Shown piece after piece: positions 47,157-54,829 of a stretch of 64,000 bases of DNA. Source of the DNA: Gemmatimonadaceae bacterium (lineage in GTDB: Bacteria; Gemmatimonadota; Gemmatimonadetes; Gemmatimonadales; Gemmatimonadaceae); assembly GCA_040882285.1 (NCBI GenBank), contig JBBEBQ010000005.1:62001-126000 (forward strand), in the 5' to 3' direction. The stretch's first letter is position 1, and each line of letters opens with the position of its first letter. The translations under genes and the position numbers were made by a program. A model generated the notes under the pieces. The model saw only the letters and a list, made by a program, of their open reading frames with translations. It ran no database searches and had not been told where the DNA came from.

Positions 47157-47562
47157 ACCCACTGCTTCTCCGTTGCAAGACTCATCAGTCCAGCGGCGCA
47201 GAGCTTCTTGCATCGCTTGATCTCCTTTGCGCGAGTCTACGGACGCCGCTCGTCCCACCGTTTCCGCGGGTCTGGAGAAATATAGACCGCGACCACCCAC
47301 GATCGATGGCGTATAAGTGTGGCCATCCGATATTCGTGGAAGCGAATGCGAGCGCGACCCGATTCACCCGCGACACGCGGAGCGCACGGAAGACATCGCG
47401 TCCAGCGAGCGAAGAATCGTCGCGATGACCGTCAGCGCGCCGAGAATCGGAGCGGCGTGCGATGCGATGACATCGGTACGTCAGTTTGACCGGGCAAAGG
47501 CACGTTTTATGCCCCATAAAATAAGCAGGCACATGCCCGTTCCCCACCCCGGAGAAACCAAG
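47157..47562. other. Divergent control region of about 400 bp
   Basis: No supported gene. It contains the promoters for the propeller gene (minus) and the Csp-like gene (plus), including the inverted repeat at 47505-47521. Confidence 0.7.
47505..47521. promoter_or_regulatory. Candidate operator of the copper island, site 1
   Basis: Inverted repeat TTTTATG-CCC-CATAAAA, perfect over both 7-bp half-sites, 41 bp upstream of the Csp-like start codon. The flanking GCACG matches site 2 (54813-54829), which has TTTTATG-CCG-GATAAAG. Confidence 0.7.
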
Positions 47563-47910
47563 ATGCCGCACCCAGCGAAGTCCGCCATGATGGAGAGCTG
47601 TATATCAGCCTGTACCGACTGTGCACGCACCTGCTGGGAAACCCACGCGCACTGTCTCGAGCTGGGCGGCGAGCACGCGTCCCGCTCGCACATCACACTG
47701 CTCGCCGACTGCGCCGAGATTTGCGCGACCAACGCGGCTTTCATGGCGCGAGGCTCGGACCTGCATGGGAAAATCTGTACCGCATGTGCCGCGGTCTGCG
47801 AAGCATGCGCGGAAAGCTGCGAGAGCATGGCCGGTTCCGACCAGACGATGAAGCGATGCGCCGAGATTTGCCGGAAGTGCGCGGCAGAGTGCCGGAAGAT
47901 GGCCGCATGA
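47563..47910 (+). CDS. Cys-rich four-helix-bundle copper-binding protein (DUF326/Csp-like)
   Basis: 115 aa with 16 or so cysteines in a repeating CxxxC/CxxC pattern: ESCISACTDCARTC, HCLELG, DCAEICATNA, CTACAAVCEACAESC, RCAEICRKCAAECRKMAA. Csp proteins store many Cu(I) ions inside a four-helix bundle. GGAG precedes the ATG at 47563; no signal peptide. It overlaps the DUF305 gene by 4 bp (ATGA). Confidence 0.92.
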   Translation: MPHPAKSAMMESCISACTDCARTCWETHAHCLELGGEHASRSHITLLADCAEICATNAAFMARGSDLHGKICTACAAVCEACAESCESMAGSDQTMKRCAEICRKCAAECRKMAA

Positions 47911-48491
47911 GCGCCAACTCGAGGATCGCCGCCGGCTTGATGGTGATTTCGGCCGGTACCTTGGCTGCGGCATGCGCCGGCGAGCGCGAGGTGCCGGGCG
48001 AGGATACCGCCGTGGCCGCGGCTGCGCCTGCGGTCGGCGCCGCCGCCGAAGCCGATAAGGAGTTTCTTGCGAAGATGATCGGCCACCATAGCGGCATGCT
48101 TGTGATGGCAGAGGCCGCGATGGCATCCGCGACCGGCGAGGCGAAAAGCGACGCGCAAACAGCGCATCACATGCAGGCCATGGAAATAGACAGCATGTCC
48201 GCGATACTGAGTATGCGATACCTGACCATGATCACGCCAGCCGTGAGCGCAGAGGCCCGAATGATGGCCGACTCGCTGAAAAACCTGTCGGGCGCGTTCG
48301 TGACACACGCTTTCTATGACATGACGATCCAACACCACAGGGCGGCGATCGCAATGGTCGACGAATATTTGCCGCGCCTCTCACCGGCCATAGCAGCCAT
48401 GACTTCCAAAATGAAGGTCGATCAGACCGCGGAGATCTCGGAGTTCCAGCGGAAGGCGGGCGAGGCTCATCCGTCCCGACCCTCACCATAG
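47907..48491 (+). CDS. DUF305-family secreted protein
   Basis: 194 aa. Signal (LMVISAGTLAAACAG, lipobox-like). Two DUF305 blocks: FLAKMIGHHSGMLVMAEAAM and FYDMTIQHHRAAIAMVDEYL, each with a His-His pair and Met residues. DUF305 proteins are ferritin-like bundles frequent in copper clusters. Converges on CopC-CopD. Confidence 0.9.
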   Translation: MSANSRIAAGLMVISAGTLAAACAGEREVPGEDTAVAAAAPAVGAAAEADKEFLAKMIGHHSGMLVMAEAAMASATGEAKSDAQTAHHMQAMEIDSMSAILSMRYLTMITPAVSAEARMMADSLKNLSGAFVTHAFYDMTIQHHRAAIAMVDEYLPRLSPAIAAMTSKMKVDQTAEISEFQRKAGEAHPSRPSP

Positions 48492-48494
48492 TCG

Positions 48495-49895
48495 CTAGTC
48501 CATCGGCATAGGAAGCGCGACCAGCACCGCCGTTACGGCGACAACCAGCGCCGCGATTCCGATCTCGACGCCGGCGGTCCGGCGCAGGCGCAATGCGCCG
48601 GTCTGGTCTCCGAGCGTCGGACGAACCCGCAACCAGTTGTACGCGCCAGTCAGCGCAGTCAAGGACAGCAGCCCGACCTTGAGCAGCAACACCCTGCCAT
48701 AATCGGTGCCCGTGAGCGCGGCGAGGGAGCCCACATGAGTCCACGCCATGAACACTCCGGTCGCTCCGGCGAGCCCGCCGAAACCAAGTGCCGCCGGCGA
48801 GAACGCGTTTACGACATCGCGTACCACCGTCCATCTGTCATCGCGGTCGAGACGCCACGCCAATGGGAGTCCAACGAGGAACACCACCAACAGATTTCCG
48901 AGCCACCCGGACGCAGCGACGGTATGTATGGAGTTGGCCACGATCGATTGCGCAACCAGCCGTGGGACCGACGCGGCGTGACTCGCCAGCGCGAGTCCGA
49001 CCACGAGCGCAACGGTTGCCGCGCCGGCCACATACCACGCTGCCTGCCGCGAGCGATGGATAGCGGCATACGAGGCGACCGCGGTGATCGCAGCGGCCAT
49101 CTGCAGCAGCCACGCCCTCCCCCAGTTGGTATCGGTGAGCATCGGCGCGATCAGCGCTGGATCCCACATCTCGTTCCCGCCATGCATGGCGCGCGATTGA
49201 AGCAGGAGCCGCGCGATCGCCACTACAGCCACCGTGGCGGACGCGACGAGCCCCACTATGGCGGCCCCCCTCGCCGCCGCCGGGAGATAATCCGTCTTGA
49301 TCTCGCGGTCGATTTCCAGCGAAACCCGTGCGAGCACGGTAAGCCGGAAAGCCACTGCCCCGATCGCGACGATCGCGCCGGCGAGCGTGAACCACCGCAG
49401 AATCACGGCGAGAAAATCCTTCGCCACCCCGCCCCGCTCATCGCCCGACGTAGCCGTGTGGCCCACCATCTCCGCATGCGACTGCGCGGGCGGCGACATC
49501 GTATCTCCGCCGGCCGCGTTGGAGTCGATCGCCAATTTGACCGTAAAGGGAAACTGGCCCGAGACGGGATGCCCGTCGGCGCCGGCCGTGCGCCATTCGA
49601 CGCGATAGACTCCGGGCTCCAACACGCCGGGAATTTTCGCCGCCGCCACCATCCCCGGCAAAATTTCGAGGGGACCCAGTAATATGTCCCCGGCCGGTCC
49701 CGCAAGCCGGATCCGCGTGAACGTAAGCTCGGGCGCTTCTGTAAAAGTCAGCCGGATCACCCGCGGCGGGCTCGTGAGAACCGACTGCGCCGCGGGAGAC
49801 GAGCTCCGCAATAGGCCGTGCGCGAGTGCCGCTCCCGGCAGTGCAATGGCGACAGCCCAGACAATTGCCGATAGTCGGCCGGCCCCGAAACGCAT
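48495..49895 (-). CDS. CopC-CopD fusion, copper-binding and membrane protein
   Basis: 466 aa. Signal peptide, then the CopC domain starting AHGLLRSSSPAAQSVLTSPP (N-terminal His is the copper ligand after cleavage), ending near residue 125. The CopD part (from about 170) has eight helices with conserved His (NSIHTVAASGWLGN, MAWTHVGSLAAL). Likely passes periplasmic copper to the cytoplasm. The start overlaps the upstream gene (TGATG). Confidence 0.92.
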   Translation of the reverse strand: MRFGAGRLSAIVWAVAIALPGAALAHGLLRSSSPAAQSVLTSPPRVIRLTFTEAPELTFTRIRLAGPAGDILLGPLEILPGMVAAAKIPGVLEPGVYRVEWRTAGADGHPVSGQFPFTVKLAIDSNAAGGDTMSPPAQSHAEMVGHTATSGDERGGVAKDFLAVILRWFTLAGAIVAIGAVAFRLTVLARVSLEIDREIKTDYLPAAARGAAIVGLVASATVAVVAIARLLLQSRAMHGGNEMWDPALIAPMLTDTNWGRAWLLQMAAAITAVASYAAIHRSRQAAWYVAGAATVALVVGLALASHAASVPRLVAQSIVANSIHTVAASGWLGNLLVVFLVGLPLAWRLDRDDRWTVVRDVVNAFSPAALGFGGLAGATGVFMAWTHVGSLAALTGTDYGRVLLLKVGLLSLTALTGAYNWLRVRPTLGDQTGALRLRRTAGVEIGIAALVVAVTAVLVALPMPMD

Positions 49896-50920
49896 CAGTG
49901 CTGTCCGTGCGTTGTCGTCGAACTTGCCGCCACCGCGTGCGGACACGGCTTGCCCCCGACTACGTAGTGAGTACAGAACAGATGCGATGCGGCCCATCCG
50001 GAATGCTCCAGACATGCACTTCCGGCCGCGTCCGGACCGTGGAGCGGGTGAGCGACCACCGCGCCCGAAAGCCAGACGACGGCGAGAGCCGCTGTCGCCC
50101 CGGCGAACGCACGGCGGGTTATACGCGATGGGAGTGGAGGGCACTCTCCGGCCAGCCGGCGCACCCGCACGTCGAGCAGATCGTCGCGAATGAGGGGACT
50201 CACATGCGCGAGGCGAAGCGTGGTCCGCTCCTTCGCCGCCTTGATCAGTGCCGAGGCCATGACCAGGGGTCGGTCTCCTGCGCCGGCCAGATCAGCTTCC
50301 AGCTCGGCCTCGATCGCTACGTCGGCGGCCATGCGACTCAACGCGGGAATCCAGAACAGCGTCAGCCCTAAAAAGCGCAGTACGGAAAGGCGGAGTGGAT
50401 CCCGGCGGAGGACATGACAAGCCTCGTGCGCGAGCACGCAGCGCAGCTCGTCGTCGGAGAGTGACGACTCGAGGGCTTCGGAAATACACACCTTCGGCCG
50501 CCAGCCTCCGAAAGTGAAAGCAGGATTCCCTGCCTCTCTCGCGATGAACACAACGGCGGGATTCAAGCCGGCCGTGTGCGCAGCGACGAACATCCGCGAT
50601 CCCGGCACCGCCGGGCTGATGTCGAGACGTCGCATCCCGCGTCGCAGGCGAACTCCGGCACGCACCCTGTCAAAAATGGCGTACGCAAGACCGCCAGCGA
50701 GCAGCACGTGAATGACCCCGTGAATCGGCGCGAGCGCGAGGTGAAGAGTTACGAGGCAGATCGCGCCTACGCGCTCAAGCTGCCCCAGCTCTCCGAGTCC
50801 CGGGAGAGGAAGGTGGTGCGCGAACACCGGAACCGTACCCATCAGCAAGACAACAGCGATGCCTACGAGTAGCGCGCGCTCGTGCGCCGCCCCGCGTCGG
50901 GGGATCGCCCGGCTCGTCAA
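49895..50920 (-). CDS. M56-family (BlaR1-like) membrane metallopeptidase with Cys/His-rich tail
   Basis: 341 aa. Membrane helices at about 17-34, 55-75 and 272-290. Zinc motif HEACH (165-169: LAHEACHVLRRDP) with Glu in EAELEAD. M56 peptidases of BlaR1 type sense an outside signal and cleave a BlaI repressor. After the last helix the 51-residue tail (291-341) has three Cys (303, 316, 326) and eight His, where BlaR1 would carry a beta-lactam sensor domain. The gene overlaps the BlaI gene by 4 bp. A copper- or metal-sensing tail is inference. Confidence 0.88.
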   Translation of the reverse strand: MTSRAIPRRGAAHERALLVGIAVVLLMGTVPVFAHHLPLPGLGELGQLERVGAICLVTLHLALAPIHGVIHVLLAGGLAYAIFDRVRAGVRLRRGMRRLDISPAVPGSRMFVAAHTAGLNPAVVFIAREAGNPAFTFGGWRPKVCISEALESSLSDDELRCVLAHEACHVLRRDPLRLSVLRFLGLTLFWIPALSRMAADVAIEAELEADLAGAGDRPLVMASALIKAAKERTTLRLAHVSPLIRDDLLDVRVRRLAGECPPLPSRITRRAFAGATAALAVVWLSGAVVAHPLHGPDAAGSACLEHSGWAASHLFCTHYVVGGKPCPHAVAASSTTTHGQH

Positions 50921-51354
50921 CGATCCTCCTCTTCCGCCAATCTCTCTTGCACCAGGCGCGCAAGCTCTTCGAGCGCCTCATGGTCGGTTTCTGCCAGCAC
51001 GTCCACTAGCGAGGCCGTGACGAGGTCCCGACTGAAACCAAGGACGCCCTCGACGAGACGGCGCGAGACATACGTGTCGAATGCGGCGCGGGAATACCGT
51101 GCGCCGAAATGGAGCAGGCCGTCGCGGCGCACGCGCTTGACCAATGCTTTCGCGACGAGCTTGTTGAGCACAGTGACGACCGTCAGCAGTTGCACCGGGT
51201 GCTGCCGCGCCACGCGCTCATGAACGGCGCGCGCCGGTGCCTCGCACTCGATATCCCATAGTGCAATCATGACTTTGGCTTCGAGGTCGCCCAGCACCTT
51301 GGCTACGCCGCGCGCGTCGAGACGCAGCGTGGGCCGTAATCGCGGGGGCTTCAT
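50917..51354 (-). CDS. BlaI/MecI/CopY-family repressor
   Basis: 145 aa. Winged-helix pattern: LGDLEAKVMIALWDIECEAP, VARQHPVQLLTVVTVLNKLV, HFGARYSRAAFDTYVSRRLV. The C-terminal half (LVDVLAETDHEALEELARLV) is the dimerisation segment. Start ATG at 51354 overlaps the DUF4198 stop (ATGA); the longer form lacks homology. The CxCxxxxCxC copper motif of CopY is absent, so sensing would depend on the M56 partner. Confidence 0.9.
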   Translation of the reverse strand: MKPPRLRPTLRLDARGVAKVLGDLEAKVMIALWDIECEAPARAVHERVARQHPVQLLTVVTVLNKLVAKALVKRVRRDGLLHFGARYSRAAFDTYVSRRLVEGVLGFSRDLVTASLVDVLAETDHEALEELARLVQERLAEEEDR

Positions 51355-52247
51355 CGCAACGCGGCGTGAAACACGATGCTGACCCAGTGCGTGTCCCAAT
51401 CAGCGCCGGAGCCCGGCTCGGCGGGGGCGATGTGGATCCCGCGCACGTTCCAGAGCCCCGCCGCGCCCAGACGCACGACGATCTCACCGGACCGATCGGT
51501 CACGAGAGTCGTGTCGGGTGAAGTCACGACAGGCGACTCAAGGCTGGTCGCCGAGTGGACGACCGCCCCAGCCGTGAGACGCGCACCCTCGAGCGGCGCA
51601 CCTCTATATAGAAGTCGAAAGCGCAACGTGTCACCGCGCCGCGCGGCGGATGGATCACGCACGGGGAGGAGCTCCAAAGGATGGCCTGCAACTTCGGCAA
51701 ATGCGCGTGGGCCACCACGCCCGACCTGCACGAAAGTCTTCGCGTACTTCGCGTACCGCCGCGTCACGCTGTCCCGGCCAGCCAGCGTTCCGTCGGCCTC
51801 CAGACGTCGACGGGCTTCCGGCGCCCCCTCAAGCTCCAGGTATCGGAGAAAACTGCCGACGGATTCCCTGATGGAGCGTGGCTCGAGAGACACGGCGACG
51901 ACGTATTGCGCGGAGCGGCGTGGGCGATGCCGGAGTCGCAGCGACTTGCCGTCAATCGCCAAGCCTGTAATGCGATCGGCGCCGCCCTTTGATATCAGCC
52001 GCGCATCGGCAACCCGCTCGACGGCGACCGCAGACTCGCTCGTTGGAAAGCGGCTGCTGGTCTGGCCCCGAACCTCTACCATCCCGCCCTGCCTCGCGTG
52101 GAACGCGTTGGGGACGAGCCAGAAATCGTGCGCCCACGAAACGGTGCCAACCGTCATCGCCAACGTCAACACCACGAACACCGCGCGCACCGGGTACCAC
52201 CCGATCTTTGCTGTCGTTCGCGTCAGCCCGCGTGACAATAGTCGCAT
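51351..52247 (-). CDS. DUF4198-type secreted protein
   Basis: 298 aa. Signal peptide (VLTLAMTVGTVSWAHDFWLV); the mature N-terminus HDFWLVPNAFHARQGGMVEV is the DUF4198 hallmark (N-terminal His as in CopC-like metal binding). The C-terminus has Ig-like strands (HIAPAEPGSGADWDTHWVSI). Family proteins associate with metal transporters. A half-site TTTTATC lies 15 bp upstream. Confidence 0.85.
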   Translation of the reverse strand: MRLLSRGLTRTTAKIGWYPVRAVFVVLTLAMTVGTVSWAHDFWLVPNAFHARQGGMVEVRGQTSSRFPTSESAVAVERVADARLISKGGADRITGLAIDGKSLRLRHRPRRSAQYVVAVSLEPRSIRESVGSFLRYLELEGAPEARRRLEADGTLAGRDSVTRRYAKYAKTFVQVGRGGPRAFAEVAGHPLELLPVRDPSAARRGDTLRFRLLYRGAPLEGARLTAGAVVHSATSLESPVVTSPDTTLVTDRSGEIVVRLGAAGLWNVRGIHIAPAEPGSGADWDTHWVSIVFHAALR

Positions 52248-52339: not shown

Positions 52340-53947
52340 CTAGGGTTTCTTGGGCGGCGGCGGCATCGGCATCTTGCTGTGATCCATCCCCTCCATCGGA
52401 TCGGGCTTCGGCGCCGGACGCGCAGCAGCCGGCCGTGCCGCCGGTTTCCGCGCGGGCGTGCCGGTCCGCCGTGCAGGAGTCGAACGCGCGGGCGTCGCAC
52501 GCCGGGGTGCTGTCCGCGCGCGCGGAGCGGGGAGTGGCGCTGCCATCAGCGCCTCCAAGTGGGCTCTGTGCTCGGCGGGCATGTCCGCGATCATCTCGCG
52601 CATCATCCGGCTCAGCGTAGTGTCCGAGCGAATGTGGCGGCGCATCCCGGTGTCGGCCAGCATGCGCATGTGCAGCGCCATCACGTTTTCCGCGTGCCCG
52701 CCGGAATCGTGGCCCATCGCCGCGTGATCCATTCCGGCCATCCCCCCGGCACGGGAGCTATCAACGCCCGTCCGCGAGTGATCCATCCCCGCCATCGACG
52801 GAGTGGCGCCGGCGCGAGACGAGTCGTGTGCCATCCCCTGCATTCCGGCCATCCCCGGCATCGCGCCCATGGTGGAGTGATCCATTCCCGCCATCACTGC
52901 GCCACGCTCGACGGTCGGCGTGGGAAAGGCGGCGAGAAAGCCCAGGACGGGTCCACCCATGTTCTGGATTCCCATCATTCGCGCCATCGCCAGCCATTCG
53001 TCGCGCGTCTGAACGAAAGAGCTGTCGTCGCGATACCGGCGAGCCGCGAGCAGGATTTCGGCCCGCTTCCGCTCCCGAGGGACCGCGGGATTCGCGAGTA
53101 TGTCGGAAACCACGTCGTGCATCGAGTGAAGGTTGTCGAAAATGATCGCGGCTTCGGGATAGCGAGCTGTGAACAGCGGCGCGACCTCGGGGGTCATCGG
53201 CATGACGCGCGGCATCCATGTCGGCGGGTCCTCGATCATTTGCCGGAAGCGCGTCACGGTGGCGAGTACGCCCGTCTGCCGCTCGTCCTTGTTCTTCCCC
53301 GCCAGTAGCGGCTCGTATAGTCCTATCTGCAGCCAGTGGTAGGCCCAGATCAATCCGTTGAACTTGGGATAATTCTTTCGGAACGCCGTGGAGTACGGCT
53401 GGCCCTCCATTAGCTCCATCGTCTTCGGCATGGAGCTGAAAGCGAGATCGGGGCGGGACTTGTAGTACGCCACCATCTCTGCGACGAGCGCATCCTTTCG
53501 CTCGACAGGAATGCGCTCGTCCGCCCAGACGTCATATATCTGGCGGTGAAGCAGGTGCGCCCAATCGAACATCAGCTTGGCCTCTGGCGCCAGCTTCGCG
53601 TACTGGATCTCAATGGCCGATTCCTCCAATGGTACGTGCGGAGGATGGACGAGTATTTCCTTGGTGAGGCGATCGTACCATCTCACCTCTAGCTCGCTCA
53701 CCGGAGCATTGGGCTTGGTCCAAAGCGACTCATATAGTATGGCGTGTCCGAAATCGAATGCGTTGAACAGCTTCGCGCCGGCCGGATAGTTGTGCAGGAA
53801 CTGCCAGTTGAACTCCCCCGGCAGATAAAACTGCTCGTACGTGCGCGACCACTGTGCCCCGGCGGGAACGCTGAACGCCGCCGCGGCGAGCACTCCGAAA
53901 ATCGCGGTCCGGAGCCGGAGTGGCGCGGCTCCAAATTGAATACGCAT
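52340..53947 (-). CDS. Met/His-rich copper-island protein with MDHS repeats
   Basis: 535 aa with signal peptide. The N-terminal 330 residues (SRTYEQFYLPGEFNWQFLHN) form a domain I do not recognise. Residues about 330-430 contain MAGMDHSTMGAMPGMAGMQG, GMDHSRT, GMDHAAMGHDSGGHAE and MALHMRM. The C-terminal Ala/Pro/Arg-rich tail ends with GMDHSKMPMPPPPKKP. MxxM and MDHx clusters match copper-binding segments of PcoA/CopA and CopB. Gene lies 4 bp after the barrel gene. Confidence 0.85.
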   Translation of the reverse strand: MRIQFGAAPLRLRTAIFGVLAAAAFSVPAGAQWSRTYEQFYLPGEFNWQFLHNYPAGAKLFNAFDFGHAILYESLWTKPNAPVSELEVRWYDRLTKEILVHPPHVPLEESAIEIQYAKLAPEAKLMFDWAHLLHRQIYDVWADERIPVERKDALVAEMVAYYKSRPDLAFSSMPKTMELMEGQPYSTAFRKNYPKFNGLIWAYHWLQIGLYEPLLAGKNKDERQTGVLATVTRFRQMIEDPPTWMPRVMPMTPEVAPLFTARYPEAAIIFDNLHSMHDVVSDILANPAVPRERKRAEILLAARRYRDDSSFVQTRDEWLAMARMMGIQNMGGPVLGFLAAFPTPTVERGAVMAGMDHSTMGAMPGMAGMQGMAHDSSRAGATPSMAGMDHSRTGVDSSRAGGMAGMDHAAMGHDSGGHAENVMALHMRMLADTGMRRHIRSDTTLSRMMREMIADMPAEHRAHLEALMAAPLPAPRARTAPRRATPARSTPARRTGTPARKPAARPAAARPAPKPDPMEGMDHSKMPMPPPPKKP

Positions 53948-53951
53948 AGTC

Positions 53952-54776
53952 CTACCTCACCGCGCGACCGATCGGGAACAACGATCTGATCCCGAACGCA
54001 CGCGCCAATCCGAATGTGATGTGCCAAGCCTGCTCGTCGCCCGTAATCGCCTTTCCGACCCCGCCGTCTATGGAGATCGTCGGTGATACCTGATACCTGA
54101 CACCGGCGCCAATGCTCCACTCCGTGTCCTCGGCCTCGACGATCGGCTGCCGCGCGACCGTCTCCGCAGTGATCAACAGGGCCTTGAGCGGGAAAGTGCG
54201 ATCGACGGCGACGCCGGCCATCCAGCGCGACAGGTCCGGCGCGCCGAGCCGAACGGAGCCGGGGGCCGGCTCACTGCCGAAGGTGTATGCTCCGTTCAGG
54301 TGGAAGCGAGCCCATGACAGCGAACGCGTCGCAATCCCCTTCACGGTCCCATACGTGTCCTCGTGCGCCAGCGACCCGACGGGGAAAAGGACTTCAGCCG
54401 CCACGCCGAGGGCAGGAATGGAAGTTTCCGCATTGAGATTATGCAGCGCGGAAAAGGTAATGCCGCTCAAGCCGGCGTTGCGCGCGCCGCCGCCGGCATC
54501 CGCATAGGCGATCGGGAAGCCAAGCTCGACATGAGTACGGGGAAATATCCCGTACGCGATCTCAGGCTCCACCTCCCAGCTGTACAATCCCCCGCGCGCG
54601 CGCTCGAGCCGCAGGGGCGCTAACTGCAGTTCAAAGGCGTAGCGCTCCGTCGCATAGGCGTCCTCGACCGTGATCGGACGACCCGCATCGGTGTTGTAAT
54701 AGTCGGTTTGTGCTGCGGCCGGGACCGCGGCGAGGCAGGACGTCATGGCAATCAGGCAAGAAACGCGGAGACTCAT
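53952..54776 (-). CDS. Outer-membrane beta-barrel protein of the copper operon
   Basis: 274 aa with signal peptide (LIAMTSCLAAVPAAAQTDYY). Alternating-hydrophobicity strands (RYAFELQLAPLRL, EPEIAYGIFPRTHVELGFPI, EWSIGAGVRYQVSPTISIDG). First gene of the minus-strand copper transcript, 37 bp from the candidate operator. Function within the family is unknown; a role in copper efflux or binding is inferred from context. Confidence 0.75.
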   Translation of the reverse strand: MSLRVSCLIAMTSCLAAVPAAAQTDYYNTDAGRPITVEDAYATERYAFELQLAPLRLERARGGLYSWEVEPEIAYGIFPRTHVELGFPIAYADAGGGARNAGLSGITFSALHNLNAETSIPALGVAAEVLFPVGSLAHEDTYGTVKGIATRSLSWARFHLNGAYTFGSEPAPGSVRLGAPDLSRWMAGVAVDRTFPLKALLITAETVARQPIVEAEDTEWSIGAGVRYQVSPTISIDGGVGKAITGDEQAWHITFGLARAFGIRSLFPIGRAVR

Positions 54777-54812: not shown

Positions 54813-54829
54813 TTTTATGCCGGATAAAG
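54813..54829. promoter_or_regulatory. Candidate operator of the copper island, site 2
   Basis: TTTTATG-CCG-GATAAAG, an imperfect copy of site 1 at 47505. It lies 37 bp upstream of the barrel gene start and is flanked by GCACC. In the + direction the 14 bases GCACsTTTTATGCC are shared by both sites. Confidence 0.68.

Follow-up and report, generated by a model that had tools for sequence, protein, structure and literature searches.

Why would a copper operon carry a BlaR1-type membrane peptidase beside a BlaI-family repressor, and what could such a peptidase sense? We took up this question for one locus of a Gemmatimonadaceae bacterium, within a stretch of 64,000 nucleotides that is called the window below (contig JBBEBQ010000005.1, positions 62,001 to 126,000). 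A sequence-only reading of this DNA had proposed that the peptidase senses extracytoplasmic copper through a Cys/His-rich tail and relieves repression by cleavage.

The BlaI/M56 pair and its copper island

The island contains the following features, in window coordinates:

54814..54828: probable BlaI operator TTTATGCCGGATAAA, 37 bp 5' of the start codon of the operon's first gene
53952..54776, minus: first gene of the operon, outer-membrane-type protein (Phenol_MetA_deg, PF13557, barely above cut-off)
52340..53947, minus: Met/His-rich protein, 535 aa, without a Pfam family
51351..52247, minus: DUF4198 protein, overlapping the start of BlaI by 4 bp
50917..51354, minus: BlaI/MecI/CopY-family winged-helix repressor, 145 aa (Pfam PF03965)
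49895..50920, minus: M56 (BlaR1-type) membrane metallopeptidase, 341 aa, TTG start (Pfam PF05569)
50708..50815, minus: second Cys/His cluster of the M56, in the TM1-TM2 loop and TM2 (from conservation and predicted topology)
49895..50050, minus: C-terminal Cys/His tail of the M56, residues 291-341 and stop, predicted extracytoplasmic
48495..49895, minus: CopC-CopD fusion, 466 aa, its ATG start overlapping the M56 stop
47907..48491, plus: DUF305/CopM-like protein, 194 aa, directly 3' of the Csp-like gene (CopM match below threshold)
47563..47910, plus: Csp1-like Cys-rich copper-storage protein (TIGR04401 match below threshold; DUF326; start re-assigned)
47506..47520: second operator-type site TTTATGCCCCATAAA, 42 bp 5' of the likely ATG of the Csp-like gene

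The earlier claim that a blaI gene overlaps an M56 gene with the motif HEACH in a copper operon proved correct. The overlap is 4 bp (TTGA), and both products match their Pfam families (PF03965, Penicillinase_R domain, 54.7 bits against a cut-off of 22.6; PF05569, 37.3 bits against 31). The DUF4198 and blaI genes likewise share 4 bp (ATGA), and the M56 and CopC-CopD genes share 1 bp (TGATG). Because all four genes overlap, they are probably translationally coupled. At the thresholds used, the pair comprises the sole M56 and the sole BlaI of this genome (2.9 Mb in 27 contigs, 96.6 per cent complete).

Two other island genes deserve comment. The Met/His-rich protein has forty Met, twenty His, and no Cys, is seen again in the copper islands of relatives, and is a candidate copper binder. 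The reading frame of the Csp-like gene as listed is too long at its 5' end (47317-47562), because the second operator-type site sits within the extension, where it would encode FMPHK; the ATG at 47563, with GGAG upstream, is the likelier start.

The nearest named relatives are Gemmatimonadota bins, and a contig scan with a single protein matched the nearest relatives only; a tblastn search of plasmids with both proteins gave no match. Among 99 relatives searched, many of the sampled genomes being draft bins, orthologues occur in 18, the window's own genome included. When 394 genomes of the phylum were searched with a profile, about fifty M56 proteins formed a discrete group, nearly all above 250 bits; the remainder score below about 75 bits, with few intermediates. 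In a tree built from protease-domain columns, with the tail excluded, the 54 orthologues split from the other 23 sequences with a support of 0.89. BlaI adjoins the M56 on the same strand in all 52 assessable loci, and BlaI orthologues (E below 1e-40) are found in the 18 M56-bearing genomes out of 99 and in no other.

A recurrent dyad and the genes behind it

Upstream of blaI in the relatives we found a recurrent dyad, TTTAY-N5-RTAAA, which the sequence-only reading had overlooked. The window holds two copies, versus none in 100 shuffles. Across the whole 2.9-Mb genome there are just two sites, both in the copper island, and one match to a reversed control pattern. All 18 genomes with the pair contain the dyad, versus 10/81 without it (99 genomes; Fisher p = 5e-13); none of the loci of 20 other M56 proteins of the phylum has it. 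Bases that flank the search pattern are also conserved (RY before TTTA). By contrast with CopY and BlaR1/BlaI systems, the TACAnnTGTA box is absent from the window and from the regions upstream of 21 blaI genes. From these sequence patterns, TTTAY-N5-RTAAA is probably the BlaI operator. Three loci (L035, L145, L149) carry the pair with no strict operator nearby.

The loci examined hold 104 dyad sites, 89 of which lie at most 260 bp from a gene start. Eighty-one of those 89 stand before genes of families that recur in the islands, though the reference families were partly taken from the genes behind the sites, so that the independent part of this result is the recurrence and not the total. Among the products of the genes behind the dyad are BlaI, CopC, CopD, CopC-CopD, a multicopper oxidase (copper_res_A, above its cut-off), a P1B ATPase (copper-type, above the TIGR01511 cut-off), OEP, DUF305, the outer-membrane protein, and a protein of the SnoaL/DUF4440 family that is apparently secreted.

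Small, apparently secreted proteins of this last family recur behind the operator in fourteen cases (e.g. L044 1140-1655, L046 10562-11074, L047 13359-13841, and L116 6290-6817). One genome (G014; loci L113-L116) has five operator-like sites and no BlaI/M56 orthologue. Two of its sites are near a SnoaL/DUF4440 gene, as in the copper islands, and two stand before TonB receptors; the missing pair perhaps reflects an assembly gap or a loss.

The Cys/His residues of the M56 and what they might bind

The M56 carries HEACH at residues 165-169, along with E206 and D210, and HExxH is present in all 54 Gemmatimonadota orthologues. S. aureus BlaR1 was its best solved-structure match in both Foldseek searches, with weak E-values (3e-3). 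As had been read from the sequence, the protein lacks a penicillin-binding sensor: we found no Pfam match to such a domain, and 51 residues alone follow the last helix. A beta-lactam-sensor reading was rejected on this ground.

Hydropathy and two AlphaFold models predict three TM helices (about 16-34, 51-84, and 270-289), with the gluzincin domain between the second and third. Positive charges fall on the side where the protease lies; the tail contains a single Lys and lacks Arg. Given this helix layout and charge distribution, the TM1-TM2 loop and the tail should lie on a common outer side, provided that the protease faces the cytoplasm, as it does in BlaR1. AlphaFold confidence is low for the tail (pLDDT about 50 or less), which was modelled without metal.

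An exact count upheld the earlier description of the tail (residues 291-341): 51 residues with three Cys and eight His, the two together making up 21.6 per cent of the tail versus 5.2 per cent of the remainder. Conservation of the tail had been put forward as a check on its role, and the motif C-x(1,2)-H...HL(F/I/L)C is kept in 51/54 orthologues, with the closing C-x-H in 49/54. The motif occurs in 0/20 other M56 proteins of the phylum, so the pattern is beyond chance. One locus (L038) has a degenerate or altered tail. The conserved tail residues are H291, C303, H313, C316, C326, and H328.

The sensor as first described was nevertheless incomplete. A second cluster, in the predicted TM1-TM2 loop and TM2, comprises H36, position 50, C55, H60, H67, and H71, where position 50 is Arg in the window's own protein and His in most relatives. 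Outside the protease domain, 23 positions are at least 90 per cent conserved among the 54 orthologues, and 12 of these are Cys or His: six of the thirteen in residues 1-98, none of the three in the last helix, and six of the seven in the tail. With six further Cys/His positions conserved in the outer loop and TM2, the predicted metal site is larger than the tail.

Copper need not be what such a site binds. The M56 could sense the outside and inactivate BlaI with another metal (zinc, silver) as its chief ligand, given that several soft metals bind Cys/His sets, or it could respond to disulfide-forming oxidation, and the three tail Cys are indeed nearly invariant, as expected of disulfide partners. 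We consider this unlikely, since the annotation of the regulon is copper-specific (CopC, CopD, the copper_res_A oxidase, the copper-type ATPase, and the Csp-like protein) and disulfides fail to explain why conserved His outnumber Cys.

The tail might also be a copper-binding appendage with no part in signalling, with regulation constitutive or driven by another signal, e.g. envelope stress. Many M56/BlaI pairs of the phylum are tail-less (15 of the 20 control M56 proteins adjoin a BlaI and have no Cys/His tail), so the M56/BlaI module works with other inputs. In the present group, however, the tail goes along with the operator and the copper genes, and the simplest role for a fixed metal-ligand set on the regulator of a detoxification operon is that of a sensor; we regard a non-signalling tail as very improbable.

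Variation on the module is seen elsewhere in the phylum. Sister M56/BlaI pairs with short Cys-pair tails (PPCNICLI..., ...VCHTCPPF) are found at L160 750-1724 and 3577-6189 (genome G393) and at L175 580-1545 (genome G346), and the pair at L160 is accompanied by an unassigned gene, an HMA-domain protein, and a copper-type P1B ATPase. These are possibly cases of another metal input feeding the same module. In another M56/BlaI group (L178-L187), several M56 proteins end in a charged, Glu/His-containing tail without Cys (e.g. GEHELRERRER).

The repressor itself has MecI and BlaI as its PDB relatives. It had been said to lack CopY's copper motif, and this was confirmed: the CxC is absent from BlaI and from all 20 orthologues examined, and the single Cys of BlaI is at no conserved position. 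We accordingly rejected a CopY-type reading of the pair. A cytoplasmic copper sensor in BlaI, with the M56 merely a turnover protease, has in its favour that CopY is another member of the BlaI/MecI/CopY family, that H52 is invariant, and that two further His are kept in 17/20 orthologues, but it seems highly doubtful to us because none of the 20 orthologues has a conserved Cys or CxC, no BlaI orthologue occurs without the M56 in 99 genomes, and the conservation of the M56 tail would be left without a reason. The MecI cleavage site known from the BlaI/MecI literature aligns near the conserved ASLVDVLAE of BlaI, in a weak profile alignment to MecI that serves as a lead only.

A proposed copper switch and its known relatives

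The best explanation for this locus, and in our judgement a likely one, is a one-step proteolytic copper switch made up of BlaI and the M56. BlaI bound to the TTTAY-N5-RTAAA dyads would silence the csp-DUF305 unit and the copper operon (outer-membrane protein, Met/His-rich protein, DUF4198, blaI, M56, and copC-copD). The zinc gluzincin domain of the M56 would face the cytoplasm, and its TM1-TM2 loop and C-terminal tail would lie outside. Copper would bind the loop/TM2 set (H36, position 50, C55, H60, H67, H71) and the tail set (H291, C303, H313, C316, C326, H328), the membrane helices would shift, and the protease would be activated. The active M56 would then cleave BlaI or cause its loss, turning on the regulon, its own circuit included, until copper drops. 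The copper-sensing part of the original proposal is well supported, because the tail is conserved, the BlaI-M56 pairing is strict, the neighbourhoods are rich in copper genes, and the operator regulon is restricted to copper functions; copper as the ligand, the binding of BlaI to the dyad, the sidedness of the M56, the cleavage of BlaI, and the direction of the response we infer.

Elsewhere in the genome, a CsoR/RicR-like repressor adjoins a CopA-type ATPase, with no BlaI-type operator near. It resembles the pair as proposed here in being a copper regulator next to copper genes, but it is a cytoplasmic sensor of another family. CsoR could be the main copper sensor of the genome; its presence also suggests a possible division of labour, with CsoR inside and BlaI/M56 outside.

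A broader reading is evenly balanced in our view. It would make these proteins a separately evolved class of copper sensor, in which the M56 outer loop, TM2, and Cys/His tail form a copper site that gates transmembrane proteolysis. On this reading, many Gemmatimonadota would rely on the sensor as their extracytoplasmic switch for copper stress, operator and regulon would be its own, and the sister proteins would place other Cys tails beside other metal pumps.

The pair resembles BlaR1/BlaI and MecR1/MecI of staphylococci and bacilli in having an M56 gluzincin membrane protein with HExxH and an adjacent BlaI-family repressor. BlaR1 and MecR1 have four TM helices, whereas three are predicted here; their penicillin sensor is absent and the 51-residue Cys/His tail stands in its place; and their dyad is TACAnnTGTA rather than TTTAY-N5-RTAAA. 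Detailed knowledge of how a BlaR1-type protease is activated from outside is confined to beta-lactams, which act by acylating a large sensor domain. If the proposed switch is correct, the input would be far simpler, consisting of a 51-residue tail plus a helix, with about twelve fixed Cys/His, and could reveal how metal binding gates BlaR1-type proteases. The predicted operator, ligand residues, and regulon are ready for testing.

CopY of the Firmicutes shares the winged-helix family and a copper regulon. It carries a copper-binding CxC and binds the TACAnnTGTA cop box (PMC10141476), both of which are absent here.

The closest precedent is PetR/PetP of Synechocystis sp. PCC 6803. There, a BlaR1-like protease degrades a BlaI-like regulator in a copper-dependent manner (Garcia-Canas et al. 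2021, as summarised in PMC7896320 and PMC13421787; see also PMC12292863). Because of this earlier pair, the original description of the locus as a distinct copper-regulation pathway is too strong. Both systems combine a BlaI-family regulator with a BlaR1-like protease that lacks a penicillin sensor, in a copper context, as judged from published descriptions of PetRP. The four proteins under PetRP control serve the plastocyanin/cytochrome c6 swap, and PetR acts as an activator as well, whereas the regulon predicted here is one of copper resistance. A 2023 review (PMC10141476) points out that copper homeostasis is not among the responses driven by PetRP, and that BlaR homologues found in other marine bacteria still lack an explanation. 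Our literature search, whose coverage largely excludes subscription papers, returned nothing that describes such a pair, either in an operon for copper resistance or in Gemmatimonadota, and the BlaI/M56 family seems to be undescribed, as do its sensor and DNA site. Given the PetRP precedent, we regard the pair as a new variant and not a wholly new kind of system. If the proposed switch holds, copper-triggered repressor proteolysis, seen in the cofactor swap of a cyanobacterium, would also serve copper resistance in a different phylum. What is new relative to PetRP is the link to copper resistance instead of a cofactor swap, together with a defined candidate sensor and operator.
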